Positions 3 through 23,127 of a stretch of 39,255 nucleotides of DNA are shown here, piece after piece. The stretch lies in assembly GCA_039815145.1 (NCBI GenBank), contig JBCBZW010000039.1, forward strand, positions 1-39,255, in the 5' to 3' direction. Origin of the DNA: Pseudomonadota bacterium. Its GTDB lineage: Bacteria; Pseudomonadota; Gammaproteobacteria; Steroidobacterales; JBCBZW01. Numbering within the stretch: the first letter of the stretch is position 1; every line of letters begins with the position of its first letter. The notes beneath the pieces were generated by a model, which saw only the letters and a program-made list of their open reading frames with translations, was not told where the DNA came from and did not search any database. The translations under genes were made by a program, and so were the position numbers.

Positions 3-1046
3 GACAACGGCGATGCCATCGGCCTCGACGCCGTGGTCTACGCCACGGACCCGAACATCACCGAAGACCTGTTCCCGCCGATCATCGACAACTTCGGCTC
101 CGGTGCCGTGTTCGATGCCAACAACATGAGCGATCCGGACTTCAACCCGGCGTTCTCCGTGACCAGCGGCCAGGACTTCAGTGACGGCGACAACATCGTC
201 AACGTGGGCTTCGTGGCCATGTTCGGCTACGCCCAGGGCTTCGCCGCCGGCTTCGAGAACTTCAAGTTCAAGGTCCGCGACGTGCCGGTGGGTGCTGCCC
301 TCGAAGTGAAGTTCATCGGTGGCGGAGGCGAGACGTCCCGCCTCTACGACGTGCTCACCTACGAAGGGTCAGAGGCGATCGGCAACGGCTGGTACCAGCT
401 CACGATCCCGATGGCGGACTTCGCCGGCAGCGTCGCCAACAACGACGGCTTCCTGATCGGTCCCTTTGACAACCAGCCAGCCCCGTTCACCTTCCTGCTC
501 ACGGACATCGGCTTCAGCGGCATGGTCGCCGACGATGGCGGCGGTGGGGGTGGAAACGACGATCCCGACGAGCTGACCGAGAACGGTCGCTTCGAATCCG
601 GGGATCTGATGGGCTGGACGATCTTCGAGAACAACGGCCAGATCTTCATCGAAGAGAACGACGCGAGTGAGGGGATGTTCTCCGGTCGTCTCATCGCAGG
701 TCCGGGCCAGAACCCGGTGCTGAAGCAGGACTTCCTTGGCGTAGATGTGGTGATGCCTGGAGACACTGTGGAAATTTCCTTCGATATGAAGGGAACCTTC
801 GAAGGTCCGGGCCCGGTATTCGTGGCAGAGTTCTTCACCGAGGCCAGCGGTGGCGGCGTCTTCGCCGAGATCCTGGAGCAGGTGTTCGACGCACCGGCTG
901 ACTGGACCACCTACACCTACACCGCCACCGTGGCGGCGGATGCGGGTCGTGGCATCACCCTGCAGGTGGTGGCTATCTGCAGCGGGGACCCGGCCTGCCG
1001 CGCGGATGTGCTGGTCGACAACTTCAGCGTGAAGATCGCGCAATGA
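3..1046 (+). CDS. C-terminal part of a secreted carbohydrate-binding protein (5' end outside window)
   Basis: The frame is open from the first complete codon, so this is the last 347 residues of a longer protein. Two beta-rich modules are visible. The first (about residues 1-170) is unassigned. An acidic Gly-rich linker follows (DDGGGGGGNDD). The last about 155 residues begin with NGRFESGD..GWT, the usual opening of CBM4/9/22-type jelly-roll modules, and end in VLVDNFSVKI, the usual last strand of that fold. I infer an extracellular or surface polysaccharide-binding or -cleaving protein whose catalytic part, if any, lies upstream of the window. Only about 53 bases separate its stop from the next start, so it is probably the upstream member of the glucan operon. 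The N-terminal identity cannot be judged. Confidence 0.8.
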   Translation, partial: DNGDAIGLDAVVYATDPNITEDLFPPIIDNFGSGAVFDANNMSDPDFNPAFSVTSGQDFSDGDNIVNVGFVAMFGYAQGFAAGFENFKFKVRDVPVGAALEVKFIGGGGETSRLYDVLTYEGSEAIGNGWYQLTIPMADFAGSVANNDGFLIGPFDNQPAPFTFLLTDIGFSGMVADDGGGGGGNDDPDELTENGRFESGDLMGWTIFENNGQIFIEENDASEGMFSGRLIAGPGQNPVLKQDFLGVDVVMPGDTVEISFDMKGTFEGPGPVFVAEFFTEASGGGVFAEILEQVFDAPADWTTYTYTATVAADAGRGITLQVVAICSGDPACRADVLVDNFSVKIAQ

Positions 1047-1099: not shown

Positions 1100-4000
1100 A
1101 TGAACGAGATCAACAACAGGGAATTCGCTATGACCGCTAGCCGCCTTTGGCGTCGCATGAAGGCCGTCGTCTGGGTGTTGCCGCTGCTCCTTGCGCTCGG
1201 CGCACCGGTGCAGGTGGCCCACGCCCAGGTGGATCGGGTCGAGACCTACAAGGACGCGAACGGCTGGAAGCTGAAGGTCAATGGCTCCGACTACTACGTC
1301 AAGGGCGTGGTCTGGGGCTATTCGCCGCGCGGTCAGAACTACACCTACAACCTGTGGGGCCAGCCGGACGACTTCATCCGCAAGGTGCTGGACTACGAGA
1401 TGGGCCTGATGAAGGCCGCAGGCATCAACACGATCCGCACCTTCTCCATGATCCCGCCGAAGTGGATCACCTACATCTACCGCGAGCACGGCATCATGTC
1501 CGTGGTGAACCCCCTGATGGGGCGCTACGGCTACAACGTGGGCGGTAAGTGGATTCCCTTCACCGATTACTCCGACCCCCTGACGCGTGAGACGCTCAAA
1601 CGCGATATGCAGGGCTGGGTGCAGCAGTACAAGGACACGCCGGGCGTGCTCATGTTCGCCTTCGGTAACGAGAGCAACTACGGCCTGTCCTGGTCCAGCT
1701 TCGAGATCGAGAACCTGCCTGCGGGCGAGCAGCAGACCGCGAAGGCGCGCTTCCTCTACTCCCTGTGGAACGAGGTGGTCAAAGCCGGTAAGTCGATCGA
1801 TCCGAACCACCCGTTCACGATCGTCAACGGTGACATTCAGTACATCGACCTCATCCAGGAGCTGTGCCCCGACCTCGACCTGCTCGGCTCCAACGTTTAC
1901 CGCGGCAAGAGCTTCACCACCCTGTGGAGTGAGGTGGAAGCGAAGCTCGATCTGCCCGTGGTGTTCTTCGAGTTCGGCAGTGACGCCTTCAACGCCCGCC
2001 GCTTGGAGGAGGATCAGCTGTCGCAAGCGCTGGTGCTGCGTGATCAGTGGGCGGAGATGTACCGCAAGGCCTACGGCAAGGGCGAGGAGGGCAACTCCAT
2101 CGGTGCCTTCGTCTTCGAGTGGCGCGATGAGTGGTGGAAGTACCTGCAGATCGAGAATCTGGAGATCCACGACACCAACGCCTCCTGGTCCAACCAGGCC
2201 TATCCCTTCGACTGGGCCGAGGGCCTGAACAACATGAACGAGGAGTGGTTCGGCATCATGGCCTTAGGGCTGCCGAACTCCGAGGGCGTGTACACGGCCC
2301 GTCCGCGTATGGCCTACGACGTGTTGGCGGAGATCTTCCAGATCGATCCGTACACGGCCAACGTCGGCGAGATCAACGCCCGTGTGGCGAGCGTCGACCT
2401 TGACGTGCTGGAGCTCAAGGGCGAGGTGCGGGCCCTGAAGTCTCGCGCCAACGAGGACCGGCGGCTCCTGAAGTTCACCGGCGGTGACATCCGCGGTGAA
2501 TTCGCCGTGCGAGCCCTCGAACAGGACATCACCGAGCTCGGTGAGAACGGGGTGGAGTTCACCACCGGCCAGCAGCTGAACGTCGACTTCGCCTTCAACC
2601 CGAGCGAGCAGGTGGAGGGTCAGTTCTCCCTCAACGTGCTCGGTGACGTGGCCGACAAGCAGCCCCTGGAGTTCGAGTACGGCCAGCGCGGCCTGCCGCT
2701 GACGATCCGCGTACCCACCCTGAACGAGAACCCGGGCCTGGTCCTGCGCGATCAGACGCTGGATCAGTTCACGGAGCGCCAGGTGGTGCTGTCCGATCGT
2801 GAGCGCGTCGAGATCTACGACTTCAACGCCAAGTACACGGGCCAGAACTTCGATCTCGAGGCCTTCTACCACACGCCGCGTTTCCACTGGGCCTACGAGG
2901 GTGACTTCTTCGGCCTGATCCAGGAAGCCACGGACATCCCCGGCATCGACGTCTTCAACGGCAAGGCGCCGGAGGGCATCGAGTTCACCGGTAAGGGGCC
3001 GCTCGAGGGCCTGAAGATCGTGGCCGGTCCCGAGATCTACTGGGGCGCCAACCCGAAGGCGGTGATCAAGTACGAGTTCGCCACCAAGGGCATCGACTGG
3101 GCGATCATCCACTCGGAGGACTTCTCGCGATTGGGTACGGGTGCTAACGCCACCCAGGCCACCCAGCGTCAGACCCGGGCCACGTCCATCTACGCTTCCA
3201 CCCAGCTGCCGGGCGGCATCAAGGTGGAAGCGGGCGGTCTGCTCTCCGCACCCGAGCGTATCGACGAGCAGTTCGACCGGGTCGACGAGGATGGCAACAT
3301 CATCACGGACCAGATCGAGTTCGAAGACACCCTGGGCTTCAAGCTGAAGACGAGCTTCCGCCTGTTCGGCACCGAGGCCTACCTCTCCGCACAGCACGCG
3401 GGCCTGGTGTCGGAAGGTGGTCGTCCGGTGCCGACCTTCGGCGTGCTGGATCCGACCCGCTTGCCGCTCACGGGCCTGGGTAACCGTCGCGAGTACGAGG
3501 CGGGCACGATCATTCGCTTCGGCAACCTGATGATCTACCCGCGCTTCCTCTACCGCGACAACCTGGTGGACGCGAACCCGTTCATCGAGCCAGGCATTAC
3601 GCCGGACGGCATCCTGAACCCCGGCCTCGTGCCGCGTGACCGTGACAACGATGCCTTCGCCGTGTTGAGCAACCGTGAAGCCCGCTCCGGTGAGATCTTC
3701 TTCACCTGGGATCCGACCGGTGCCACGCCGTTCTACGACTGGGACAACGAGTGGCGTGAGGACGCGAAGTTCGCCTTCAACATCGGTGCCAACTACACCG
3801 AGTACCCGACGGCCACGGACGCCAACCTGTTCTTCCTCGACTTGGGTAACGGCGGCAGCAACGCCTCCTTCGGTCAGGGCCTGCCCGCCGAGGACGTGTG
3901 GAGCGTCACCAGCCGCATGGTCTGGAACCCGAGCCCGAACCAGAACTACATCCTGACCCTGGTGCGAGGCTTCGATCAGTCGACGGGTGATCCGACCGGA

Positions 4001-4330
4001 GGAACGCGTGATTTCTACGAGGCATACTGGAAGGCGGTGATCAACAAGCGCCACCTGGTGCGCGGTTACTTCAAGAAGGACTCGTGGGGTCCGGAGGACT
4101 TCTTCCGCCAGTTCAACTTCACCTACCCCGAGCAGTTCGAGTTCGACTACTCCTTCCTGCTGGGTAAGGGGCTGTCCTTTGGCAATCTCATCGATGAGAT
4201 CCGCGCCACCCGTATCGGCGTGCGCACGATCTTCCGTACCACCGATGAGAACTCCCTGCCGGAGGAGTTCCTGGACGGCGAGAACGACTACGCCTTCCTG
4301 ACCACCTTCTACTTCACCTATCGCTTCTGA
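1100..4330 (+). CDS. Clan GH-A glycosidase fused to a predicted outer-membrane beta-barrel
   Basis: This is a 1076-residue exported protein. I chose the ATG at 1100 because GGGAGGGGAG lies 9 bases upstream; ATGs at 1043 and 1130 are also in frame. A signal peptide follows, with likely cleavage after AHA. Residues about 45-410 form a TIM-barrel glycosidase domain of the GH2/GH5/GH72 kind (clan GH-A): the acid/base candidate is E191 in FGNESNYG and the nucleophile candidate is E291 in FFEFGSD. A short heptad-like helix (about 420-455) follows. Then come about 500-600 residues of alternating amphipathic strands rich in Tyr, Phe and Trp, ending in FYFTYRF, a C-terminal Phe signature of BAM-inserted barrels. 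Such a fusion would hold a glucanase at the outer membrane, perhaps over its own pore. The exact GH family and substrate are inferred from the neighbouring GH16, GH17 and phosphorylase genes. Confidence 0.82.
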   Translation: MNEINNREFAMTASRLWRRMKAVVWVLPLLLALGAPVQVAHAQVDRVETYKDANGWKLKVNGSDYYVKGVVWGYSPRGQNYTYNLWGQPDDFIRKVLDYEMGLMKAAGINTIRTFSMIPPKWITYIYREHGIMSVVNPLMGRYGYNVGGKWIPFTDYSDPLTRETLKRDMQGWVQQYKDTPGVLMFAFGNESNYGLSWSSFEIENLPAGEQQTAKARFLYSLWNEVVKAGKSIDPNHPFTIVNGDIQYIDLIQELCPDLDLLGSNVYRGKSFTTLWSEVEAKLDLPVVFFEFGSDAFNARRLEEDQLSQALVLRDQWAEMYRKAYGKGEEGNSIGAFVFEWRDEWWKYLQIENLEIHDTNASWSNQAYPFDWAEGLNNMNEEWFGIMALGLPNSEGVYTARPRMAYDVLAEIFQIDPYTANVGEINARVASVDLDVLELKGEVRALKSRANEDRRLLKFTGGDIRGEFAVRALEQDITELGENGVEFTTGQQLNVDFAFNPSEQVEGQFSLNVLGDVADKQPLEFEYGQRGLPLTIRVPTLNENPGLVLRDQTLDQFTERQVVLSDRERVEIYDFNAKYTGQNFDLEAFYHTPRFHWAYEGDFFGLIQEATDIPGIDVFNGKAPEGIEFTGKGPLEGLKIVAGPEIYWGANPKAVIKYEFATKGIDWAIIHSEDFSRLGTGANATQATQRQTRATSIYASTQLPGGIKVEAGGLLSAPERIDEQFDRVDEDGNIITDQIEFEDTLGFKLKTSFRLFGTEAYLSAQHAGLVSEGGRPVPTFGVLDPTRLPLTGLGNRREYEAGTIIRFGNLMIYPRFLYRDNLVDANPFIEPGITPDGILNPGLVPRDRDNDAFAVLSNREARSGEIFFTWDPTGATPFYDWDNEWREDAKFAFNIGANYTEYPTATDANLFFLDLGNGGSNASFGQGLPAEDVWSVTSRMVWNPSPNQNYILTLVRGFDQSTGDPTGGTRDFYEAYWKAVINKRHLVRGYFKKDSWGPEDFFRQFNFTYPEQFEFDYSFLLGKGLSFGNLIDEIRATRIGVRTIFRTTDENSLPEEFLDGENDYAFLTTFYFTYRF

Positions 4331-4363
4331 TCGGCTCGTAGGCAGAGCACGAGGATTGTGAGA

Positions 4364-5095
4364 ATGAACAACAAGACGCTTAAGGCCAGCAGCATCACGC
4401 GATGGATGACGATTGCCTCCCTCGCGGTGGTGGGCGGCCTCGGCCTCACGGCCTGTAACGACGGCACGGACGGCGGCATGGTGATCAATGCGATCGTGCT
4501 GCCGAGCGACACGCTGCTGAACCTCGCCTGCATCAACGTAGGCGTCGGTTCCGAGCGCTGTGTGCTGGACGACCCGGAGAACCCCTTCATCGGGACGCCC
4601 ATCGTCGAGTTCGACGCCAACAACCCCGACGCGGCGAACAAGTTCGAGCTGTTCAACGCGATCCCCGTGGGGCCGGAAGGTGCCAAGTCGCGCTTCTACT
4701 TCTGGGCCACGGCACTCGCCAACCGCCAGTCCGGGGAGAACCAATACTTCACGGCGCTGGCGTTGCACGAGCTGTGGGATATCAACGGCGACCCCCTGAT
4801 CCAGGAGCAGGCACTGAAGGCCTACCGCTCCGTGCTGGACAACTTCTTCGGCCAGGTCACCGTGTTCACCTGCTGCCCGGGCCTGAGCCCCGACGGCGAG
4901 CCGGTGCCGTTCCCGGTCGGCACCAACGAGCTGGCGGCGGATGCCCTGTACCGGACGGACGCGACCGGCTTCGATCGCCTGATCCCCGGCGATCCGCTGC
5001 TGGTGATCTCGCAGCTCCTCGAGTGGGGATTCACCTACCAGCCGGCGAATCCTCCGCTCTTCGATGACGGAGTGGTCAGCGTCATCGGTGGCTAA
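4364..5095 (+). CDS. Small lipoprotein of unknown function in the glucan operon
   Basis: The product is 243 residues. The ATG at 4364 is preceded by GAGGA at 4351-4355; an in-frame GTG two codons earlier is less likely. The N-terminus is a lipoprotein signal with lipobox LTAC, giving acylated Cys31 followed by Asn rather than Asp, so outer-membrane sorting is expected. The rest contains several Cys residues (LACINVG, SERCVLD, FTCCPG) and a helical middle part (ALHELWDINGDPLIQEQALKAYRSV). I do not recognise a family. It sits 33 bases after the barrel-fused glycosidase and overlaps the next glycosidase gene. A role as a surface partner, like the SusD-type binding lipoproteins of other glucan systems, is possible but not shown by the sequence. 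Confidence 0.75.
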   Translation: MNNKTLKASSITRWMTIASLAVVGGLGLTACNDGTDGGMVINAIVLPSDTLLNLACINVGVGSERCVLDDPENPFIGTPIVEFDANNPDAANKFELFNAIPVGPEGAKSRFYFWATALANRQSGENQYFTALALHELWDINGDPLIQEQALKAYRSVLDNFFGQVTVFTCCPGLSPDGEPVPFPVGTNELAADALYRTDATGFDRLIPGDPLLVISQLLEWGFTYQPANPPLFDDGVVSVIGG

Positions 5096-6926
5096 GCACT
5101 GGCGCCAGTCGAGCCTGGCAACGGCGGGCTCGGCGGTGGGCCTGGTGGCCGCGGTGACGGTGTTCCTCACCGCAGGCCTAGGCGTATCCCGCAGCGCTCA
5201 CGCGGAGGAGGCTCGGGGCCCCGTGCCCGTGGAATTGCGCGAGACCCCGCAGGGCTGGCAGCTCTACCGAGGGGGCGAGCCTTACTTCATTCGCGGCGCC
5301 GGCGGCGACGCGTCCCTGGAGGCCCTGGCCGCTGCCGGGGCGAACTCCGTGCGCACTTGGGGCGGTGAGGTCGACGAGGTGCTCGATCAGGCCCAGGCCT
5401 TGGGGCTGACAGTCACCGTCGGCATCTGGCTCGGCCACCCGCGACACGGCTTCGACTACGGCAACCCTGCCCAGGTTGAGAAGCAACTCGCCCGCGCCGA
5501 GAAGATGGTCCTGCGCTACCGCAATCACCCCGCGCTGCTGCTGTGGGGTGTCGGCAATGAGGCGGAAGGCTTCGACGAGGCGACGGACCCCAAGGTGTGG
5601 AAGGCCATCAACGACGTGGCCGCAATGGTGAAGGAAACGGATCCTCACCATCCCACCATGACCGTGACCGCCTTCGTCCACGGGGAGCGCATCGAGTACA
5701 TCCACGAGCGCTCACCGGCCATCGATATCCACGGTATCAACGCCTACGGGGGGGCACAGGTGGTGCCCGAACGCCTGCAGGAGAAAGGCGCCAGCAAGCC
5801 GTACGTGCTCACCGAATTCGGCCCCCTCGGCCCTTGGGAGACGCACTCGACCGAGTGGGGTGCGCCCCACGAGCAGACGAGTGAGGAGAAGGCCGCGTTC
5901 TACCGTGCCACCTACGAGCACGCGGTCGACGGCCAACCCGGCCGCACCCTGGGCGCCTACGCGTTCCTCTGGGGCCACAAGATGGAGGGCACGGACACCT
6001 GGTTCGGCATGTTCCTGCCCGACGGCGCCAGCACGGCGGCGGTGGATACCATGTCCACCTTATGGTCGGGTAAGGCGCCCGCCGATCGTGCGCCCACCAT
6101 CGCTGCCCTGACGGTGGCGGGAGAGGCCGCGGTAAAGTCGGGCGACGTGGTCGAGGTGTCCACGCGCATGGCCGATCCGGATGGCGGCGATCTACGCACC
6201 CGTTGGGTGTTGCGGGCGGAGTCCGGCGAATACGCCACCGGCGGCGACTTCCGGTCGACCCCTCTGCCCATCGAGGACGCGATCCTGTCGTCCAGCGCCA
6301 CCGGCGCGCGGGTGCGTATGCCCGAGGCACCGGGGCCGTACCGGCTCTTCGCCTACGCCTACGATGAAAGCGGCAAGGCAGGTACCGCCAACGTGCCTCT
6401 GCTCGTGAAGGGAGAGCGTCGCACGCCCCTGCCGTTCCCCGTGTACGAGGACAGCCTGGAACAGATGGCCTGGGTGCCGTCCGGGTGGATGGGGGGCGTC
6501 GAGCACCTATCCCTCGACGGGGACGACACCAGCAACCCTCATCGGGGCAAGGCATCGATCCGAGTTCGTTACGAAGGTCAGTTCGGCTGGGCCGGCATCG
6601 CCTGGCAGCATCCCGTCAACAACTGGGGTGATCAGGAGGGCGGCATCGACCTCACGGGGGCCCGCAAACTGGAGTTTTGGGCGCGCGGCGAATACGGGGG
6701 CGAGAAGGTGAGCTTCGGTGTGGGCTTGCTCGAGTCCGACAAGAAGTACCCCGACTCCAGCATCAGCAAGTCCGGCGACATCGTGCTGACCGACGCCTGG
6801 CAGCGCTACGAGATTCGCTTGAGGGGCAAGGACCTCAGCAGCCTCAAGACGGGGTTCTACGTCACCCTCGTGGGACGCACTTCGCCGGTCACCATCTACC
6901 TGGACAGCATCCGCTTCACACGCTGA
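5064..6926 (+). CDS. Exported clan GH-A glycosidase with C-terminal beta-sandwich module
   Basis: The product is 620 residues. The ATG start at 5064 lies inside the end of the lipoprotein gene (32-base overlap); a GTG at 5088 is a possible alternative and neither has a strong ribosome site. A hydrophobic segment ending in AHA (about residues 18-47) is a signal peptide. Residues about 55-345 form a GH2-like TIM barrel: acid/base candidate E166 in GVGNEAEG and nucleophile candidate E251 in LTEFGPLG. An Ig-like middle region (about 350-455) contains DPDGGDLRTRW. The last 160 residues are a jelly-roll-like module ending in VTIYLDSIRF, typical of carbohydrate-binding sandwiches. It is the last gene of the operon; a weak hairpin follows at 6931. 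A periplasmic or secreted enzyme acting on products of the barrel-fused glycosidase is the likeliest role; the exact family is open. Confidence 0.8.
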   Translation: MTEWSASSVAKHWRQSSLATAGSAVGLVAAVTVFLTAGLGVSRSAHAEEARGPVPVELRETPQGWQLYRGGEPYFIRGAGGDASLEALAAAGANSVRTWGGEVDEVLDQAQALGLTVTVGIWLGHPRHGFDYGNPAQVEKQLARAEKMVLRYRNHPALLLWGVGNEAEGFDEATDPKVWKAINDVAAMVKETDPHHPTMTVTAFVHGERIEYIHERSPAIDIHGINAYGGAQVVPERLQEKGASKPYVLTEFGPLGPWETHSTEWGAPHEQTSEEKAAFYRATYEHAVDGQPGRTLGAYAFLWGHKMEGTDTWFGMFLPDGASTAAVDTMSTLWSGKAPADRAPTIAALTVAGEAAVKSGDVVEVSTRMADPDGGDLRTRWVLRAESGEYATGGDFRSTPLPIEDAILSSSATGARVRMPEAPGPYRLFAYAYDESGKAGTANVPLLVKGERRTPLPFPVYEDSLEQMAWVPSGWMGGVEHLSLDGDDTSNPHRGKASIRVRYEGQFGWAGIAWQHPVNNWGDQEGGIDLTGARKLEFWARGEYGGEKVSFGVGLLESDKKYPDSSISKSGDIVLTDAWQRYEIRLRGKDLSSLKTGFYVTLVGRTSPVTIYLDSIRFTR

Positions 6927-13183: not shown

Positions 13184-14134
13184 CTAGGCGGATGGGTGGT
13201 CGCGCATCGCGAGCTTAGGCGTGCGGTCCACGCGGTAGAGACCCCAGTGTTTCTCAGGCTCCAGGGGGTCCGCCGAGCCCTTCCAGGGCTCGTCGAAGGC
13301 CTCGAACACGAAGGTGAGTATCTCCTCCCGATCGACCCACTCGAGCAGCTGCTCGTAGTAGGCAGCTTGCAGCTCCTCGGAGGCGTTGTGGGGCTCGATG
13401 CCCCGTCCGTTGGCCGCCGTGGTCCACCCGGCCTCGGTGATGATCACCGACTTGTCGGGGTAGTGTTCGGCCACCGAGCGATAGTTGTCCTGCGTGTAGG
13501 CCAGGGCCTGGTCCAGCGAACGGTACTCCCACACGGGGTAGGTGTGGATCGCGATGACGTCCAGCACCGCGGCGAGCGGTTCCAGCTTTTGCGTCCAGGG
13601 CACGTAGTTCTCGCAGAAGGTCACCGGCTGTGGAATGCCCGCGCGCATCTGCGAGGCGTAGCTCACCAGGCGCTCCACCGGCACCAGGTGGTCCGTCCAG
13701 TCGACGCTCGCCTCGTTGCCGATCGACATGGCCATCACCGTGTGCGGATGAGCGCTGGCCAGGGCGATCGCGCGGATGACGCGCGATTCGTTGGCGGCGC
13801 GGTTCTCGCGCAGGGTCTCCTCACTGAAGTCAGCGCCCCAGGGGCAGTTCGGGTTGCTCACCTCGGCGGCGAGATCCACGCCTAACATCACGCGTAGGGG
13901 CAGCGCTTCGCGTTCGATCACCTCCAGCACCGTCTGCGCGTGGCGACTGCAGTCGTACAGGCGAAGGTACTGCCAATGGGGCGCGAGGATATTGAGATCC
14001 TCCCGAATCTCCTCGTAGGAGGGGTACAGACCGTGGCCGGGGTGTTGGCCCTCCCGGTAGCCCGAGTAGCAGATGGCGCGCCCGTAGGTGGGCAAGGAGC
14101 GGGTCATGAAGGGGCGGGCGATGATGTCAGACAT
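13184..14134 (-). CDS. GH17 family beta-1,3-glucan-active enzyme (second copy)
   Basis: The product is 316 residues. I start at the ATG at 14134 (MSDIIARP), preceded by GGGAAG; it overlaps the end of the upstream GH17 gene by 8 bases, which suggests translational coupling. The protein shows GH17 features: RLYDCSRHAQTV, acid/base candidate E141 in SIGNEASVDW, IHTYPVWEY, nucleophile candidate E234 in IITEAGWTT, and FEAFDEPWK near the end, close to a GH17 signature in altered form (EAGWTT instead of ETGWP). No signal peptide is present, so it should act in the cytoplasm. GH17 enzymes are endo-beta-1,3-glucanases or glucanosyltransferases. With the phosphorylase in the same operon, trimming or rearranging imported beta-1,3-glucan oligosaccharides is the likely job. 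Confidence 0.85.
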   Translation of the reverse strand: MSDIIARPFMTRSLPTYGRAICYSGYREGQHPGHGLYPSYEEIREDLNILAPHWQYLRLYDCSRHAQTVLEVIEREALPLRVMLGVDLAAEVSNPNCPWGADFSEETLRENRAANESRVIRAIALASAHPHTVMAMSIGNEASVDWTDHLVPVERLVSYASQMRAGIPQPVTFCENYVPWTQKLEPLAAVLDVIAIHTYPVWEYRSLDQALAYTQDNYRSVAEHYPDKSVIITEAGWTTAANGRGIEPHNASEELQAAYYEQLLEWVDREEILTFVFEAFDEPWKGSADPLEPEKHWGLYRVDRTPKLAMRDHPSA

Positions 14135-15023
14135 ACTTCGGCTTCCCGTGCTGGTCCCACAGGCCCCAGTAGGCGCCGACATCGCCCTCGGCGGCCACCT
14201 TCCAGGTCTCGTCGAAGGAGGAGAACCAGAAGACCTCCACGTCATCCTCTTCCGCCCACTGGTAGGTGTCGAGGAAGTACTTGATGGCGTGCTCGAAGGA
14301 GGGCACGGCGCCGCCGACGGGGGTGCCGATGTTGGGCCAGCCGGTCTCGCTCACGATCACGCGCTTGCCCGGCGCCACGCGCTGCGCGCGGCGGTACATG
14401 TCCTTCATGTACAGGCAGGCGAACTCCGCCGGGCAGCTCTCCCAGAAGGGATAGCAGTTGGCGAGGATCACATCGCAGGCCTCGGTGATGCGCGGATGCA
14501 CCTCGAACTCGAAGTAGGCATCGACGTAGCCTACCGGCACGCTGTCTGGCACCGCGGCGCGGGCGCGATGCAGGTACTCGAGCAGCTGATCTTCCGTGAG
14601 ATCGCCGCGCAGGAGCACTTCGTTACCCACGCCTAGCACATCCACAAGGCCGGCCTTGGCCAGTTCGATGCCCGTGGCCAGCTCCTGGTCGTTCTTCTCC
14701 AGGTCGTCGCCGAGCCAGACGCCGACCATGGTGTTGAGCCCTTCGCCCTTGGCGATGGCCGGGATGAGCTCGTTGCCCTCGCTGCAGGAGAAGGTGCGTA
14801 TCCAGCGCACGTAAGGCTGGATGATGGCCAGGCGTTCGCGAATCTGCGCCTCCGTGACCTTCACCACCTTGGGGTCCTGGCCCTCCACGTAGGGGCTGAA
14901 GGAAATCCCGTGGAGGCCGCGCTCGAGAAGCTCTCGTACGAGGCGGCGCAGGTCCTCGACGCTGCGATTACGAATATCGACCCCGGCGAGGGAGAGCTTG
15001 CGTTGGTAGGGCGACATCGACAT
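14127..15023 (-). CDS. GH17 family beta-1,3-glucan-active enzyme (first copy)
   Basis: The product is 298 residues with no signal peptide. GH17 hallmarks are clear: GISFSPYVEG near the N-terminus, RTFSCSEGNEL, acid/base candidate E135 in GVGNEVLLR, ANCYPFWE, and nucleophile candidate E226 in VSETGWPNIG, an almost exact match to the family signature; FSSFDETWK follows. It lies 20 bases after the phosphorylase stop and its end overlaps the second GH17 gene, so the three form one operon. The two GH17 proteins share architecture but differ a good deal in sequence, so they are probably not a recent duplication and may have different chain-length or transfer specificity. Confidence 0.9.
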   Translation of the reverse strand: MSMSPYQRKLSLAGVDIRNRSVEDLRRLVRELLERGLHGISFSPYVEGQDPKVVKVTEAQIRERLAIIQPYVRWIRTFSCSEGNELIPAIAKGEGLNTMVGVWLGDDLEKNDQELATGIELAKAGLVDVLGVGNEVLLRGDLTEDQLLEYLHRARAAVPDSVPVGYVDAYFEFEVHPRITEACDVILANCYPFWESCPAEFACLYMKDMYRRAQRVAPGKRVIVSETGWPNIGTPVGGAVPSFEHAIKYFLDTYQWAEEDDVEVFWFSSFDETWKVAAEGDVGAYWGLWDQHGKPKYV

Positions 15024-15043: not shown

Positions 15044-18000
15044 TCAGTGTTTGAAAAGCAGGGTGGTGCCGAGGCGCACGACGACTTCGCGTACGCGCCC
15101 CTCACGGCGGAAGAGCGACTCACTGTCGGCGCTCGAGAGCGTGAGCTCGGCTTGTGACTGGCTGGTGCCGTCGGCGTAGTGCACGGTGATGCCGGCCGCA
15201 TCTTCCACCTCGACCAGGGCGTAGCGCACCGGCACCTGGCACCAGGTGAACGCCAGGCTGTGCGGCGATAGCGCCAGCTCGTGCCACTCATCGTCGAGGC
15301 CCACGTAGCGCAGGGGCGCTGGCGCCGACAGGAACTCCTGTCCGCGCAACAGTTGCGGGCGAAAGCTCACGCGGCCATCGCGCACGCGCACGCCGAGCTC
15401 GCCGAAGCGTGTGAGCACCTCTTCCTTGACCTGTCCGGTCATGCCCGGTTGGCGCGCGCCGGCGTGGCCCGGGGTGTGCGAGTAGGCATCCATGGGGAAG
15501 GCGCCGAACTCCGCGGGGGACTTGTTGAAGCCGATGCCTGCCCGTACCTGATAGTAGTGTTCGCCGAGGCGATGGCAGGTGAGTTCGTCCGTACCCGCCT
15601 CGAGCGCCGCGAAGAACGTCTCCTGTACCGCCAGCAGGAGCTTGGAAACCATGTGCCAGTAGATGCAGCCGAGGCCCTCGAAGCCGAACATGGTGCCGGA
15701 TCGGCCGGTGAATGCTTGGTGATCGAAGACCTGTTCGAACAGTGCAAGGACGCTGTCTCGGCCATCGGCCACCAGGCCTTGGAAGCTCTCGGGCAGGGCG
15801 TCCAGCGCGCTTTGCAGGTCATCGGCGTTGGTGAAGTCCGCGTTGAAGCGATAGGTGCCCTCGGCATCCCTGTAGAGCACGTCCTCGTTACCGTCCGCGA
15901 GCAGGCGGGTGAGCAACGGATTGGCTTCGACCTGCGCCTGCGCCAGGCGGTTCTTATCCAGGAAGCTCGCCAGCTTGCGGTCGGGGTAGAGCATGAAGCT
16001 GTGTTGGTCCACCCGGTAGATAGGGCTGTCGAAGAGCCCGTCCAGTACCGCCACCGCTTCCTGAGGCGCCAGGGTGCCGGCGCTGAGCGCAGCCACCTGT
16101 CCCTCGAGCATCGGGTAGAGATGGCCGAGTTCCAGCCGTTCCTCGCTCACCCCCAGCAGGTTGTAGGCGTGGTAGAGGCCGTCTTCGCGACGGTTGCTCT
16201 GGATGCTCTGATCGACCACCGCGCGCGTATCGTCCAGCAGGCTGGTGATCTCGCCCATGGGCAGCGCTTGCACCGCGCCGTCGCCGGCGCCTTCGGCGTA
16301 GACGGTCGTGCGATAGGTGCTGGCCGCCTCCCCGAGTTGCACCAGCAGCGCGTAGCGGTCGTGGTCGTTGGGGACCGTACCGGCGTCGAGGCGGCCGCGG
16401 AAGGCGTGCAGGGCGGTCGCCGTGTCGCGCAGCCACTGGGCGAGGGGCGCGGACAGGGTGGCCGCCGCGTCTTCGCGGCTGAGCAGTCCGTGGAGGAAGT
16501 GCACGTAGCGGCGCAGGTAGTACAAGGTCACCATGGACAGCCCCTGGCCGACCAGGGCGTTGTTGGCGTCGTTCCACTCCGGACGTTGCGTGTTCATCCA
16601 GATGCCACCGTCCACCACCAGGTTGCCGAGCTTGGCGAGCAGCGGCACCAGCAGCTTCTCCAGCAGGGTCACCTGATGTACCTCGCCGTCGCGGGTGAGG
16701 ATCAGTTTCGCATCGCCGCCTATCTGCTCGAGGCGCGCTTCGATGGCGTGCGCGGCGTCGTCGGCGTAGTCGACGGTGGTCTTCGGATCCTCGAGCAGGG
16801 CGTGGAACGGGCGGATGCGGTAGGGCACGTTGGCGTAGGCGAACAGCGGCGCGTGCAGCAGCGCCTGCAGACGCTCCGGGTGGAACTGGCGCGACAGCTC
16901 CAGGAGCTTTTGCAGGTAGATGATCTGATGATCACCCCAATAGCCGATGTAGCTCCACGGATCGTCCGGCTCCTCGACCTCCCAGTCGATGCCTTCCTTG
17001 GTGATGCGGTAAGGGTTGTAGCCGTCCATGGTGGAGGCGTTGACGAACTTCGCCACCATGTGCTCGACGTACTCGGGAATGCTGAAGGCCAGGGCCTCCC
17101 AGTTCTGGAAGACATCGCGCCAGTTGCCCTCGTACCAGTAGACCGGCTGACCTTCGCCGTCGTGGGTGCGGATGGAGAACTGATTCCACGGACGGCTGGG
17201 GTCGCCGTGGCGGCGACCGAAGGCGATCGGTAGGTACTCCTGGGCGAGGCGCTCGAGCTGTCGGTCGCCCGTCGCGCCGATGCGTTCACGCAGCTCCCAC
17301 ACGGTGAGATCCCTCGGGAGGGCGCCGAGCATGGCTTCGTGGCGTTCGTAGACGGGGCGGTTGAAGGAGCGCACGGTGGCGGCGAAATCGCCCGCCGGCA
17401 CCTGGTACTGGGAGGGGAAGTAGCCCCCGCGCAGCACGTTCCACATCACGTTGGCGTAATGGTGGGCGGCCACGTTCTCCTCGGCCGTGCCCTGGTAGCC
17501 GTCGCAGGAGGCGATGATGCGGGCGAGGGCGTCGCCGCCCGCCGCCACGTCCGCGTCGATGGCTTCGGCGAGACCAGCGGGGTCGCGTAGCGCGTTGCGC
17601 AAGTTCACGACATCGCCCTGGGATCGCTCCAGGTCAGTGACCAGGCACCAGGATTTGCCGGCACCAGGCTCCAGGCTCAGGCGCTGGTGCACGAAGTAGG
17701 CACCGCGGATGCCGCGCTCGCGTTCCTCCTCGCGCAGGGCCTCACCGTGGCGGAAGGCCTCGAGCTGCTTGGACGAGATCAGCCGCGTGGGGGCGTCCAG
17801 GCCGAGGCAGTAGGCCACGTTGGCCTTGAGCGACTCGCAGGGCGCAGCGCGGTCCGTGATGCCCGAGTAGAGGGTGAACAGCGCTAGACCTGAGCTCGGA
17901 TCCAGCTCCGTCCACTTGTACGCGTCGACCAGGTTGCTCGAGTTGGTTTGGGTGAAGCGCGGCGTGCCGGCGGGGAGCAGGTTAGCGAGGCCGTCCAGGA

Positions 18001-18523
18001 ACTCCAGGTCCACCGGGCCATCGCCGAGGTTCAGCAACTCGCAGCGGCGTACGAGGCCGAATTGCGCGCTCGTCTCCCAGGTGTAGCGGAACGCCAGCTG
18101 CAGATCGTGGTTGACCTCTTCGAAGCGCAGCTTGTGCCCAACCAGGCTCTTCGCCAGCTGGCGGCTGGTGGAGTAGCGGCCGTCGTGTTCCCGGTTGAAC
18201 GGCTCCCAGCGCTGGGAGGCCTGACCGGTGCGGTGTACCCGGACGATGGTCTTCGGGCCCGTGTGCGGCAGGCTCTCGTGGATCCTGTCAACTGTCACGT
18301 AGGGGAACAGCGACGTGTCCGGGGACACCCGTCCAGCGGTGAGCCCACCCGTCGATGATACGAACAACCAGTGGTCCGCGCTCGAGATGACGCTGACGAA
18401 GAACGGCGCCATGTGGTCGACGTCGGTGATCGCATAAAAGCGGTCGCCGGCGATGTCGACGAAGGCGCCAGCGGGGACGGGGCGACCGCTGGTCGCCTGC
18501 GGGAAATGGTGTTCCACGGACAT
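15044..18523 (-). CDS. Probable beta-1,3-glucan phosphorylase (GH149/GH161/GH94 group)
   Basis: The product is 1159 residues from the ATG at 18523; a TTG two codons earlier is possible. It has an N-terminal beta-sandwich (FVDIAGDRFYAITD..PFFVSVISS), a helical (alpha/alpha)6 core and a C-terminal beta domain, the layout of inverting phosphorylases. The segment RPEWNDANNALVGQG carries D652, which by analogy to the GH94 group is the general acid. The length (over 1100 residues) and the GH17 neighbours fit the beta-1,3-glucan phosphorylase families GH149 or GH161 better than the shorter cellobiose phosphorylases. The reaction would be phosphorolysis of beta-1,3-glucooligosaccharides to glucose-1-phosphate in the cytoplasm; no signal peptide is seen. 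It is the first gene of the operon and is divergent from GH16 across a LacI-type operator. The family placement is by motif and context only. Confidence 0.8.
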   Translation of the reverse strand: MSVEHHFPQATSGRPVPAGAFVDIAGDRFYAITDVDHMAPFFVSVISSADHWLFVSSTGGLTAGRVSPDTSLFPYVTVDRIHESLPHTGPKTIVRVHRTGQASQRWEPFNREHDGRYSTSRQLAKSLVGHKLRFEEVNHDLQLAFRYTWETSAQFGLVRRCELLNLGDGPVDLEFLDGLANLLPAGTPRFTQTNSSNLVDAYKWTELDPSSGLALFTLYSGITDRAAPCESLKANVAYCLGLDAPTRLISSKQLEAFRHGEALREEERERGIRGAYFVHQRLSLEPGAGKSWCLVTDLERSQGDVVNLRNALRDPAGLAEAIDADVAAGGDALARIIASCDGYQGTAEENVAAHHYANVMWNVLRGGYFPSQYQVPAGDFAATVRSFNRPVYERHEAMLGALPRDLTVWELRERIGATGDRQLERLAQEYLPIAFGRRHGDPSRPWNQFSIRTHDGEGQPVYWYEGNWRDVFQNWEALAFSIPEYVEHMVAKFVNASTMDGYNPYRITKEGIDWEVEEPDDPWSYIGYWGDHQIIYLQKLLELSRQFHPERLQALLHAPLFAYANVPYRIRPFHALLEDPKTTVDYADDAAHAIEARLEQIGGDAKLILTRDGEVHQVTLLEKLLVPLLAKLGNLVVDGGIWMNTQRPEWNDANNALVGQGLSMVTLYYLRRYVHFLHGLLSREDAAATLSAPLAQWLRDTATALHAFRGRLDAGTVPNDHDRYALLVQLGEAASTYRTTVYAEGAGDGAVQALPMGEITSLLDDTRAVVDQSIQSNRREDGLYHAYNLLGVSEERLELGHLYPMLEGQVAALSAGTLAPQEAVAVLDGLFDSPIYRVDQHSFMLYPDRKLASFLDKNRLAQAQVEANPLLTRLLADGNEDVLYRDAEGTYRFNADFTNADDLQSALDALPESFQGLVADGRDSVLALFEQVFDHQAFTGRSGTMFGFEGLGCIYWHMVSKLLLAVQETFFAALEAGTDELTCHRLGEHYYQVRAGIGFNKSPAEFGAFPMDAYSHTPGHAGARQPGMTGQVKEEVLTRFGELGVRVRDGRVSFRPQLLRGQEFLSAPAPLRYVGLDDEWHELALSPHSLAFTWCQVPVRYALVEVEDAAGITVHYADGTSQSQAELTLSSADSESLFRREGRVREVVVRLGTTLLFKH

Positions 18524-18618
18524 AAGCAACGTACTCTTGTCGTTGTCTTCTGGGCCGGCCTCCGCCAGCGCCTGAGGCGCCTCGGCGACCGAAAATCTAG
18601 CGACAGTTTAATTGTGTC

Positions 18619-18632
18619 TGACAGCGCTGTCA
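18619..18632. promoter_or_regulatory. LacI-family operator, perfect 14-bp palindrome
   Basis: TGACAGCGCTGTCA is a perfect palindrome with the central CG typical of LacI-family operators. It lies between the divergent phosphorylase and GH16 genes, 96 bases from the former start and 38 from the latter. The LacI-type gene at 22042-23127 is the obvious candidate regulator, so one site could control both transcription units. Confidence 0.72.
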
Positions 18633-18670
18633 TTCAGAATCCTCCGTGGGCCAACCAGGGAGGGGGATCC

Positions 18671-19987
18671 TTGAAAACAACAATCGTGGTCAGTGTCGCA
18701 GGCCTCTGTTTATTGGGCAGTTCGGCCTATGCTGCACCGCCGTCAGCGGTATGGGCGGTGAACGTCAACGGTCCCGCCTACGAGGCGATGGATGGCACCC
18801 GCTTCGCCGCCGAGACCGACGTGAGCGGCGGCACCCCCGGGGCCCTCGAGGTGGTGAAGGGCAGTCAGGATCCGGCGTTGTACGCGGGCTACCGTGTGGG
18901 GGATGTGCGCATCGCGCATGCCCTGGCCTCCGGTACCTACGATGTGACCTTCTACTTCGCCGAGCCGCTGGCCGTGCCGGTCGGTCGCAGGACCTTCGAC
19001 GCCTATCTGGAGCAGAAGCGGGTTATCGAAGACATCAACGTCATGGGCTGGCGTGACGGCAAGGCGCAGTCGGCGCTCACGGTGACGGTGCCGGGCGTGG
19101 CGGTCAGCGACGGGCGCCTCGACGTGCACTTCGTCGCCCGCCAGGGGCAGCCCGTGCTGAGTGCCTTGTCCGTACGTCAGGCCGAGCCGGCCATCGGGTG
19201 GACGCTCGCCTGGCGTGACGAGTTCGATGGCGAGCGCCTGGACGACGCGCGCTGGACGCCCGATCTGTGGCCGGCGCGCAAGGTCAACGATGAGGATCAG
19301 GTGTACACGGATCGGCCCCGCAACCTGCGCCTGGCCAACGGCCACCTGATCATCGAAGCGCACCGTGAAACCTACGAGAACGGGCAGTACACCTCGGCCC
19401 GGATCCACTCCCAGGGCAAGGGCGATCTGCTGTACGGTCGCATCGAAGTTCGTGCGCGCCTGCCCCAGGGCCAGGGCACCTGGCCCGCGATCTGGATGTT
19501 ACCTAGCGATCCCTTTCGCTACGCGACCAAGTGCAGCGATGGCGACTGGCAGGGCAACGACGCCTGCGATGCGTGGCCGAACTCCGGCGAGATCGACATC
19601 ATGGAGCACGTTGGCTACCAGATGGGGCACGTGCACGGCACGGTCCACAACGAGGCCTACTACTGGGCGAAGTGGGAGCAGCGCAAGGGGCGGATCATCC
19701 TCGATGAGGTGGACCGGCGTTTTCGCGCCTACGCTCTCGAGTGGACCCCCGAGCGCATCGATGCCTACGTCGACGACACCCACTACTTCTCCTACGTCAA
19801 CGAGCATGACGGTTGGCGCTCCTGGCCCTACGATCATCCGTACCACGTGATCCTCAACCTCGCCGTGGGCGGGGCCTGGGGGCGGGCCGGCGGGCCGATC
19901 GACGACGCCGTGTTCCCCCAGCAACTCGTGGTGGACTACGTGCGGGTGTACGAGCCGAAAGGGGCAACCCCCACGGCGGGGCGCTAG
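18671..19987 (+). CDS. Secreted GH16 endo-beta-1,3-glucanase (laminarinase type) with malectin-like module
   Basis: The product is 438 residues from a TTG start supported by GGGAGGGGGA just upstream and by a clean signal peptide (cleavage after AYA). Residues about 25-170 form a malectin/CBM57-like domain (AVNVNGPAYEAMDGTRFAAE..; GTYDVTFYFAEP). Residues about 175-428 are GH16: WRDEFDGERLDDARW opens it, and the catalytic motif GEIDIMEHVG gives nucleophile E307, D309 and acid/base E312. The extra Met in EIDIME is the beta-bulge form common in laminarinases. WPYDHPYHVILNLAVGG follows. It acts outside the cytoplasm on beta-1,3-glucan. Its stop overlaps that of the convergent SHOCT gene in a shared CTAG. 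A LacI-type operator lies in its promoter region. Confidence 0.92.
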   Translation: MKTTIVVSVAGLCLLGSSAYAAPPSAVWAVNVNGPAYEAMDGTRFAAETDVSGGTPGALEVVKGSQDPALYAGYRVGDVRIAHALASGTYDVTFYFAEPLAVPVGRRTFDAYLEQKRVIEDINVMGWRDGKAQSALTVTVPGVAVSDGRLDVHFVARQGQPVLSALSVRQAEPAIGWTLAWRDEFDGERLDDARWTPDLWPARKVNDEDQVYTDRPRNLRLANGHLIIEAHRETYENGQYTSARIHSQGKGDLLYGRIEVRARLPQGQGTWPAIWMLPSDPFRYATKCSDGDWQGNDACDAWPNSGEIDIMEHVGYQMGHVHGTVHNEAYYWAKWEQRKGRIILDEVDRRFRAYALEWTPERIDAYVDDTHYFSYVNEHDGWRSWPYDHPYHVILNLAVGGAWGRAGGPIDDAVFPQQLVVDYVRVYEPKGATPTAGR

Positions 19988-21878: not shown

Positions 21879-22044
21879 TAGGGAATCTCTGCACAAGTCC
21901 GCCCACCATCCCCGCGCACCAGCAACCCGATCTCGGCGTTGCGCAAAGTTCCCTGTAGCTGCGGCTACAGGGAACTTCGCGCGCCTTGATCTCGCGTCGC
22001 TGGACGCACGGGGCTGGCGACCAGACTTGCGCAGAGCTTCCCTA
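21879..22044. mobile_element. 166-bp MITE-like imperfect inverted repeat
   Basis: The ends are TAGGGAATCTCTGCACAAGTC and its near-complement (TAGGGAAGCTCTGCGCAAGTC read on the other strand), about 18-19 of 21 matching. The arms continue to pair inward with scattered mismatches, and the centre (21946-21977) is a perfect 14-bp stem, AAGTTCCCTGTAGC with loop TGCG, extended by GCGC pairs. It has no coding capacity. This fits a non-autonomous transposable element or an exported-RNA-like hairpin unit. It sits between two convergent genes, and its right tip supplies the TAG stop of the LacI gene. No clear target-site duplication is visible. Confidence 0.7.
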
Positions 22045-23127
22045 GGCGTTGGCGAAGCGATTGCGCCGGCGTCCGCCGGCGTTGGCGTCGTCCTCGGCGA
22101 CGGCGCCGGTGGAGTCGCGGATCTTCAGCTCTCCGAGCACCGTGCGCGGCAGGCGACGGGTGTCGTGGCCCTTAAGGCGAGCCAGCAGCAGATCAGCCGC
22201 TGCGCTCGCGAGTTCGAAGATCGGCTGGCGCACGGTGGTCAGCGATGGCCATAGGTGGCGAGCCAGGGGGGCGTCGTCGAAGCCCGTCACGGACAGACCG
22301 TGGGGCACGCTGAGCCCCATCTCGTGGGCGACGTAGAGGACGCCGGCGGCCATGTCGTCGTTGCTGGCGAGGATCGCCGTCGGGCGCTGGTGCGTGCCGC
22401 TCAGCAGCTTGCGTGCCGCCACCTGGCCCGATTCGAAGCTGTTGGTGCCCTGCTGGACGAGGTGCTTGTGGAAGGGTAAGCCGCAGCTCTCTAGCCCCTC
22501 CTTGTACCCGACGTAGCGGCTTTGCACGGCGCGATGGTCCGGATGACCGATGATGAACCCGATGCGCTCATGGCCAAGGGAGGCGACGTAGCGCGTCATC
22601 TCCGCGCAGAGCTCGCGATCGTTGGTGCGCACCGACTCGTCCGCGCGCGTACGCACACCGGGTGAGATCCGCACGCAGGGCATGTGCTGGTCTTGCAGCA
22701 TCTCGTTGAGGGCCGTCATCTCCGCGAAGGGCGGGGCGATGATGCAGCCGTCCAGGCGGGTCTCCTTCACCAGGCGCGCCACGATGCTAGGCGCATTCTC
22801 CGCGGTGGCTTCGAAGGGGTAGACCAGCAGCTCGTAGCCTTCGGCTTGGGTGCGGGCGAGCACGCCGCCCTGCAGATCGGTGAGGTAGCTCGCGCTCGGG
22901 CTCGCGTAGGGGCCGGGGTCTTCGTAGAGCAACGCGATGCGGAAGGAGCGCTTGCCGGCCAAGCGCCGGGCGGAGGTGTCCGGGCGATAGCCGAGCTCCT
23001 CGATCGCCGCCAGCACCGCCTCGCGGGTGGAGGGGCGGACGTTCGGTTCGTCGTTGATCACGCGCGAAACGGTCTTGATCGATACACCCGCCCGCGCGGC
23101 GACATGGTGCACATTCACTTTCTGCAT
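22042..23127 (-). CDS. LacI-family transcriptional regulator
   Basis: The product is 361 residues. The N-terminal helix-turn-helix (VHHVAARAGVSIKTVSRVIN) and the hinge helix TSARRLAGKRS, whose Leu normally enters the central CG of the operator, are typical. The periplasmic-binding-like ligand domain follows (DGCIIAPPF, GFIIGHP, AILASNDDMAAGVL, VTGFDDAPLARHLWPSLTTVRQP). It probably senses a glucan-derived sugar and represses the phosphorylase-GH17 and GH16 units through the palindrome at 18619. Its last residues (GGRRRNRFANA) end at a TAG that belongs to the tip of the MITE-like element, so the natural C-terminus may have been altered by insertion. Confidence 0.9.
   Translation of the reverse strand: MQKVNVHHVAARAGVSIKTVSRVINDEPNVRPSTREAVLAAIEELGYRPDTSARRLAGKRSFRIALLYEDPGPYASPSASYLTDLQGGVLARTQAEGYELLVYPFEATAENAPSIVARLVKETRLDGCIIAPPFAEMTALNEMLQDQHMPCVRISPGVRTRADESVRTNDRELCAEMTRYVASLGHERIGFIIGHPDHRAVQSRYVGYKEGLESCGLPFHKHLVQQGTNSFESGQVAARKLLSGTHQRPTAILASNDDMAAGVLYVAHEMGLSVPHGLSVTGFDDAPLARHLWPSLTTVRQPIFELASAAADLLLARLKGHDTRRLPRTVLGELKIRDSTGAVAEDDANAGGRRRNRFANA

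Follow-up and report, generated by a model that had tools for sequence, protein, structure and literature searches.

A clan GH-A glycosidase joined to a predicted 26-strand outer-membrane β-barrel in bacterial β-1,3-glucan loci: a candidate uptake system

The subject of this analysis is a gene that encodes, in a single polypeptide, a glycoside hydrolase (GH) and a predicted outer-membrane β-barrel. It lies in a 39,255-nucleotide stretch (hereafter "the window") of contig JBCBZW010000039.1 from a Pseudomonadota bacterium of the order Steroidobacterales (assembly GCA_039815145.1). The fusion was confirmed, and an artefact of this contig as the source of the join was rejected. From sequence comparisons and structural models, it appears reasonably probable that the barrel and an adjacent lipoprotein take up laminarin-type oligosaccharides, and that the enzyme processes them in the periplasm after they have traversed the pore. 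The features on which this reading depends are as follows (window coordinates, strand, description; aa, amino acids):

1100..4330, +: fusion gene, 1076 aa, comprising a signal peptide, a clan GH-A glycosidase, a helical linker, and a predicted outer-membrane β-barrel
1229..2359, +: GH-A TIM-barrel domain, residues ca. 44-420; E191 is encoded at 1670-1672 and E291 at 1970-1972
2360..2464, +: helical linker, residues 421-455, coiled-coil-like by eye; model helices at 422-430 and 434-453
2468..4327, +: predicted 26-strand outer-membrane β-barrel, residues 457-1076
4358..5095, +: lipoprotein partner gene, 245 aa, family c5, with a lipobox cysteine

Two ATG codons, at 1043 and 1100, both give an open frame to the stop ending at 4330. 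The related-locus search kept 80 of at least 588 relatives; six of these (L041, L054, L065, L068, L074, and L080) failed the full-length filter or were enzyme-only and were dropped, leaving 74 full-length loci. Together with seven proteins from the search of the window's order, these furnished 81 full-length homologues, which were aligned with the window protein (alignment A1, 82 rows); a smaller alignment (A2, 42 rows) held the window protein and 41 of the 81. At 37-67% identity, all of the homologues keep both halves, and the pairwise identities of the enzyme and barrel halves agree (Pearson 0.91 over 3321 pairs). A stop codon closes 80 of the 81 homologous frames, all of which come from other assemblies. 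An assembly error, which the original prediction had named as the event that could have joined two separate genes, was therefore rejected, as was a chance join. AlphaFold2, supplied with the 82-row alignment, returned a model of the full fusion with a mean pLDDT of 83.5 and a pTM of 0.68; in it, a TIM barrel is followed by a helix (434-453), and residues 457-1075 contain 26 long strands. The frame and the model bear out the architecture first read from the letters, i.e. one 1076-residue chain with a signal peptide, a GH-A domain, a helix, and a strand-rich region. The fold predicted for residues 457-1075 is a membrane-type barrel, not the soluble multi-domain β fold that had been considered as the alternative.

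The catalytic candidates proposed earlier, E191 (in GNES) and E291 (in EFG), are indeed found at these positions, and N190, E191, and E291 are invariant in all 82 rows and align with GH158 residues. According to the BuGH158 study, mutation of the equivalent residues abolished activity (PMC7157763). An acid/base in an NE motif after strand 4 and a Glu nucleophile after strand 7 are common to all of clan GH-A. GH158(Pro) (9oro) was matched at E 6.8e-7 by the single sequence; with the family profile, the values were 3.3e-7 for 9oro and 2.3e-6 for BuGH158 (6pal). These matches are far weaker than that of a true GH158 gene in the same locus (9oro, E 6.8e-107). For the window protein, Pfam gave nothing stronger than a sub-threshold GH2 match, though the relatives L085 and L071 pass the GH2_C cut-off. 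By Foldseek, GH158 (E 1.6e-15) and GH157 (E 4.6e-13) took the top ranks, with GH2 enzymes from 1.6e-11; laminari-oligosaccharides are present in solved GH158 and GH157 entries among the best matches. In the VIA comparison, 284 residues of 9oro were aligned at a Z of 29.1 (root-mean-square deviation 2.8, 23% identity), and GH157 had the same Z. The most fitting label for the enzyme half is that of an unclassified family of clan GH-A close to GH158. It shares the clan fold, the NE acid/base, and the Glu nucleophile with GH158 (BuGH158 and GH158(Pro)) and GH157 (LaGH157); where BuGH158 has a C-terminal Ig-like domain (PMC7157763), the fusion has the helix followed by the membrane barrel.

The VIA comparison of the full-length model lists TIM-barrel rows only and is uninformative on the barrel half. 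When this half was modelled alone, 26 long strands were again obtained (pLDDT 81.4, pTM 0.79); the two models disagree in the first hairpin. With an E threshold of 0.01, none of 42 barrel-half members matched Pfam or NCBIfam, and the barrel profile detected no sequence relative in the PDB at E up to 5. The TonB-dependent plug and barrel profiles of Pfam matched neither the window protein (E up to 1) nor the 42 barrel halves (E up to 0.01); genuine TonB receptors in relatives do match them. The autotransporter barrel profile likewise matched neither, and Alginate_exp, LamB-type, and similar sugar-porin profiles matched none of the 42 barrel halves despite the alike fold. In Foldseek searches with the barrel half (E-values of 1e-7 to 1e-9), AlgE, OprD/Occ porins, chitoporin, and TonB receptors led, and LptD and ushers ranked lower. 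All 50 of the matches listed by VIA were membrane barrels, from AlgE2 (Z 15.9) downward; SusC (BT1762-1763) was aligned over 376 residues at a Z of 12.9, and the usher and SusC matches range over residues 1-617 of the barrel model. Hydrophobicity alternates along the barrel strands (1.24, compared to 0.64 with a standard deviation of 0.09 when shuffled within strands; none of 2000 shuffles was as high). This quantity was not used as proof of a membrane barrel, because the TIM-barrel strands also score 1.09. Among the 82 sequences, 29 positions of the barrel half are invariant, many of them polar or aromatic; they include H596, D602, W648, N651, R846, D851, R859, E865, W881, and E887.

The C-terminus is periplasmic in other outer-membrane barrels. 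Counting back from such a terminus, the putative outer loops have a median length of 18 residues and the periplasmic turns one of 3 (Mann-Whitney p 0.0013), and the variation of loop length across the family follows the same outer/inner alternation (p 0.029); both results depend on the predicted strands and on the assumed periplasmic C-terminus. The C-terminal Phe that had been cited as a mark of barrel assembly is present in the window protein, but it ends just 35 of the 81 homologues. Because the strand number is even, the C-terminus is taken as periplasmic, and long and short loops alternate, we infer that the N-terminal enzyme lies in the periplasm. Prediction of the fold of residues 460-1076, the check proposed at the outset, yields a 26-strand barrel, and the strand count would place the GH domain on its periplasmic side. 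The order of events originally suggested, with glucan cut at the membrane and the products then passed through the pore, would accordingly have to be reversed, since an enzyme placed in the periplasm implies pore first and cut second. One predicted periplasmic turn, residues 871-890 (window 3710-3769), is exactly 20 residues long in all 82 sequences and holds the invariant residues D871, P872, T873, W881, and E887; the enzyme or the lipoprotein may dock there.

The lipoprotein gene in the window belongs to family c5, which was found directly downstream of the fusion in 33 of the 74 loci; family c7 takes this place in 29, and neither is found in 12. The lipobox Cys is invariant in the 35 aligned c5 members, 26 of which pass a strict lipobox pattern (start sites were used as called, uncorrected). 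The c5 lipoprotein of the window matched no Pfam family above the cut-off and has no sequence relative in the PDB at E up to 1; the one c7 protein searched also has no PDB sequence relative. Family c7 is distinct from c5 and larger, replaces it downstream of the fusion in L081, L096, and other Bacteroidota-group loci, and has weak Big_2-type matches.

Four relatives (L068, L074, L113, and L114) have the enzyme half alone. They are 64-76% identical, carry an N-terminal signal-like sequence, and end at or within the helix. In the enzyme tree, they nest as two pairs inside fusion-bearing members of the window's order, so that the barrel was possibly lost once or twice among these lineages. Neither the barrel nor c5 was found in the four draft genomes (E up to 0.001); both were found in three fusion genomes searched alongside. 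Three of the four enzyme-only loci have a TonB receptor at a distance of 1.3-8.7 kb, compared to four of the 74 fusion loci. Restricting the comparison to loci flanked by 8.7 kb or more on each side gave 2/2 (L068 and L114) and 3/43. The enzyme-only locus without a receptor, L113, is on a 7.5-kb contig. The receptor scan was seeded with four proteins, and divergent receptors may be missed by it. Because neither the barrel nor c5 was found in these drafts while a TonB receptor is near in three of four cases, the enzyme-only loci may be read as having lost one means of transport when a second was already available. In L068 (5210-7474, +), a single 755-aa frame joins GH158-like and GH17 domains.

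The neighbouring genes in the window are these:

33..1046, +: CBM_4_9-domain protein (Pfam E 6.6e-7); may be cut by the contig start, which coincides with base 1 of the window
5064..6926, +: separate GH158 enzyme (9oro, E 6.8e-107 over residues 52-448)
13184..14245, -: GH17 (Pfam, 28.3 bits against a cut-off of 28.2)
14127..15023, -: GH17 (Pfam E 9.8e-11)
15044..18529, -: GH149 β-1,3-oligoglucan phosphorylase, 1161 aa (6hq6, E 0 over residues 23-1152)
18371..19987, +: GH16 with a Malectin domain (Pfam E 2.7e-19 and 1.3e-13)
22042..23127, -: LacI-type regulator (Pfam)

The GH149 enzyme, presumably cytosolic, is the sole GH149 match in its genome. None of the window proteins that were scanned was recognised as a sugar importer of the inner membrane. 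Of the families GH16, GH17, GH30, GH149, GH161, and GH158, at least one occurs in 61 of the 74 full-length loci and at least two in 54. Proximity to GH16 and GH17 genes, which had been suggested as a test, is seen in most loci (GH16 in 51/74, GH17 in 41/74), and the claim that an intact glycosidase is joined to a porin-like barrel in β-1,3-glucan loci is supported. A GH149 or GH161 phosphorylase is encoded in 39 loci, an MFS_2 importer in 38, and a LacI match in 20; a family-5 solute-binding protein (9/74) and GH1 (7/74) occur in some Myxococcota and other loci. Neighbour genes were taken as the longest non-overlapping frames, a procedure by which some genes were missed where G+C content is high (L069, L083, and L099 lost even the fusion frame), and these counts are thus low estimates. 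Clusters of this kind with GH149 and GH161 have been described as glucan-degrading loci (PMC5827456, PMC6484121), and laminarin loci with GH16, GH17, GH149, and GH158 have been reported from Woeseiaceae (PMC12175321). Also in the window are a subtilase (7066-9006, +; Pfam E 1.9e-48), the C-terminus of which holds ca. ten copies of YLWSD[GA], and a second outer-membrane-type protein (37795-39057, +; Alginate_exp, Pfam E 6.7e-8), whose nearest glucan-enzyme gene is about 18 kb away.

The same fusion was sought in other genomes, as had been advised, and the 81 full-length homologues are spread over nine phyla, as judged from the titles of their records (Pseudomonadota, Bacteroidota, Myxococcota, Thermodesulfobacteriota, Cloacimonadota, Ignavibacteriota, Calditrichota, Delongbacteria, and Eisenbacteria lineages), many of the records being metagenome bins. 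Isolates with the fusion include Geomonas limicola, Thiomicrorhabdus, Corallococcus, and Flavobacterium, and the nearest relatives of the window in the enzyme tree include Woeseiaceae records. In the order sample, the whole-protein query matched 36 of 246 genomes, among which are the window's own, two with the enzyme half only, and some with pieces; the copies in G083, G043, and G188 are cut by contig ends. The barrel query matched 4 of 369 genomes in the class sample (own genome included) and 34 of 395 in a phylum sample around the Bacteroidales genome G614, where 32 of the 34 matches are one frame of 1046-1084 aa. No stand-alone barrel gene was found in the class and phylum samples. In G827, from the phylum sample, the fusion is split in two, each part running to the end of a contig; in G507, from the class sample, the enzyme half is not in view, but the barrel starts only 46 bases into a contig of 3326 bases. 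A broken copy, also counted in the phylum sample, was noted inside a 38-kb contig (L153, G858:C53, 1328-3210), with one frame change and the last ca. 400 residues missing. Records titled Thiomicrorhabdus and Mariprofundus (L060 and L047) also carry the fusion. These lineages are known as chemolithotrophs, and a glucan-eating locus was unexpected there.

The barrel is probably an outer-membrane uptake channel that works with the adjacent lipoprotein, because the lipoprotein adjoins the fusion, barrel and lipoprotein were both undetected in the four enzyme-only draft genomes, and a TonB receptor is near the enzyme gene in three of these. We infer a β-1,3-glucan specificity and an inward direction of transport. 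In the proposed scheme, GH16 and GH158 enzymes at the surface or secreted from the cell would cut laminarin-type glucan, and the resulting oligosaccharides would go into the 26-strand barrel, with the neighbouring lipoprotein helping or gating. The tethered GH-A domain would shorten or transglycosylate the emerging sugars in the periplasm, keeping the gradient inward. GH17 and GH30 enzymes and an inner-membrane importer (of the major facilitator superfamily (MFS) or the ATP-binding cassette type, as in relatives) would then hand the products to a cytosolic GH149 or GH161 phosphorylase.

Several observations weigh against this scheme. The Foldseek TM-scores of the barrel half to known barrels are low (about 0.2-0.4). 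In VIA, GH2 glucuronidases (Z 28.4) are tied with GH158 and GH157 (29.1), and structure alone thus leaves the substrate unfixed. Just 15 of 30 c7 proteins pass the strict lipobox pattern; c7 is therefore only presumed to be a lipoprotein family. No β-1,3-glucan enzyme was detected at E 1e-15 in the flanks of 13 of the 74 loci, which comprise short contigs and several Myxococcaceae; five of these Myxococcaceae loci show weaker GH16-like matches. The enzyme-only cases are few, related (two pairs), and from draft genomes, and the receptors beside them are putative alternative importers only. Among the 11 laminarin loci of Woeseiaceae reported in PMC12175321, 7 have a SusC gene. Finally, L036, L038, L081, and L089 carry both the fusion and a TonB receptor. 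The suggestion that the fusion replaces SusC/SusD is consistent with the scarcity of TonB receptors in the flanks of fusion loci, but it was too general in view of these four.

Three other explanations were weighed, each of which has less support than passage through the pore followed by cleavage. The enzyme might be at the cell surface, either threaded out or attached to a barrel of the other parity, where it would cut glucan outside and feed its own pore. The architecture and the gene context would fit this arrangement equally well, and the strand count carries some uncertainty: the connection between strands s4 and s5 is poorly predicted, and the models disagree on the first hairpin. Nevertheless, both models have 26 strands, which, with the loop alternation and given a periplasmic C-terminus, place the N-terminus in the periplasm. 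The signal-like sequence of the barrel-less relatives also fits a soluble periplasmic enzyme, though secretion would be compatible with it. A surface location is judged unlikely. That the barrel is a mere membrane anchor for the glucanase, in the style of the autotransporter esterases and without transport, is more doubtful still. The persistence of the enzyme alone in four genomes would accord with it, but 26 strands is far above the size of known anchors (autotransporter barrels, for example, have 12), many of the invariant barrel-half positions are polar or aromatic, and the lipoprotein gene goes together with the barrel, no copy having been found in genomes that lack it.

The PgaB/PgaA and AlgE systems pair periplasmic trimming of a polymer with its secretion through a barrel. 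By analogy, the fusion barrel could secrete a glucan that the GH domain trims in the periplasm. AlgE is the best match of the barrel half in both Foldseek and VIA, and homologues occur in the chemolithotroph lineages mentioned above. However, no synthase or glycosyltransferase was found among the annotated neighbour proteins (part of the neighbours were annotated); what recurs there is a phosphorylase of cytosolic type, sugar importers, and glucanases, and the TonB-dependent receptors near three of the four barrel-less loci are of an importing class. Export is considered the least probable of the three.

The nearest precedent found is FORMB_24740 of Formosa, an MFS-GH17 fusion in a laminarin locus that was proposed to couple cutting and uptake; its authors were aware of no other bacteria with a transporter-CAZyme fusion (PMC6246565). 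It resembles the present fusion in that a transporter and a β-1,3-glucan hydrolase are in one polypeptide in a laminarin locus. It differs in having an inner-membrane, 12-helix MFS domain with a C-terminal GH17, whereas here a predicted outer-membrane barrel follows an N-terminal GH158-like domain. In the open-licence literature (i.e. without subscription journals and preprints), no outer-membrane barrel fused to a glycoside hydrolase was found. SusC/SusD and TonB-dependent importers likewise combine a large outer-membrane barrel with a lipoprotein in a glycan-utilisation locus; their barrels have 22 strands, whereas the fusion has 26 in the models, has no plug or TonB-dependent Pfam domain, and carries an enzyme. 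LptD/LptE, in a comparison drawn partly from general knowledge, also has a 26-strand barrel, an N-terminal periplasmic domain, and a dedicated lipoprotein, and LptD-containing entries are among the Foldseek matches of the fusion. LptD, however, serves lipopolysaccharide export and has a β-jellyroll where the fusion has an enzyme, and no sequence relation to it was found by the barrel profile in the PDB. AlgE, OprD/Occ, chitoporin, LamB, and ScrY are barrels for sugars, polymers, or small substrates with 16-18 strands; by fold, they rank with the closest matches to the barrel half, but they have no enzyme and lack a sequence match to it. What is new here is the barrel family and its coupling to an enzyme; outer-membrane sugar uptake itself is known.

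SusC/SusD or other TonB-dependent receptors are the usual explanation of how laminarin enters Gram-negative bacteria. Published work puts laminarin at over 10% of the CO2 fixed yearly (PMC11345257) and remarks on the missing outer-membrane transporter of type I GH149 clusters (PMC5827456) and on loci without susCD (PMC10811738). The fusion family is a candidate for the outer-membrane step in those glucan loci that have enzymes but no TonB receptor. Automatic annotation likely passes over the barrel family, because it has no Pfam or NCBIfam entry. It is conceivable, at somewhat less than even chances, that the family constitutes a separate, TonB-independent class of importer, in which a 26-strand barrel plugged or gated by a lipoprotein would have at its exit a hydrolase or transglycosylase that pulls substrate in by processing it. 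We hold with the same reserve that such a system, LptD/LptE-like but directed inward, may have spread across many phyla and there take the place of SusC/SusD in the uptake of algal β-1,3-glucan.

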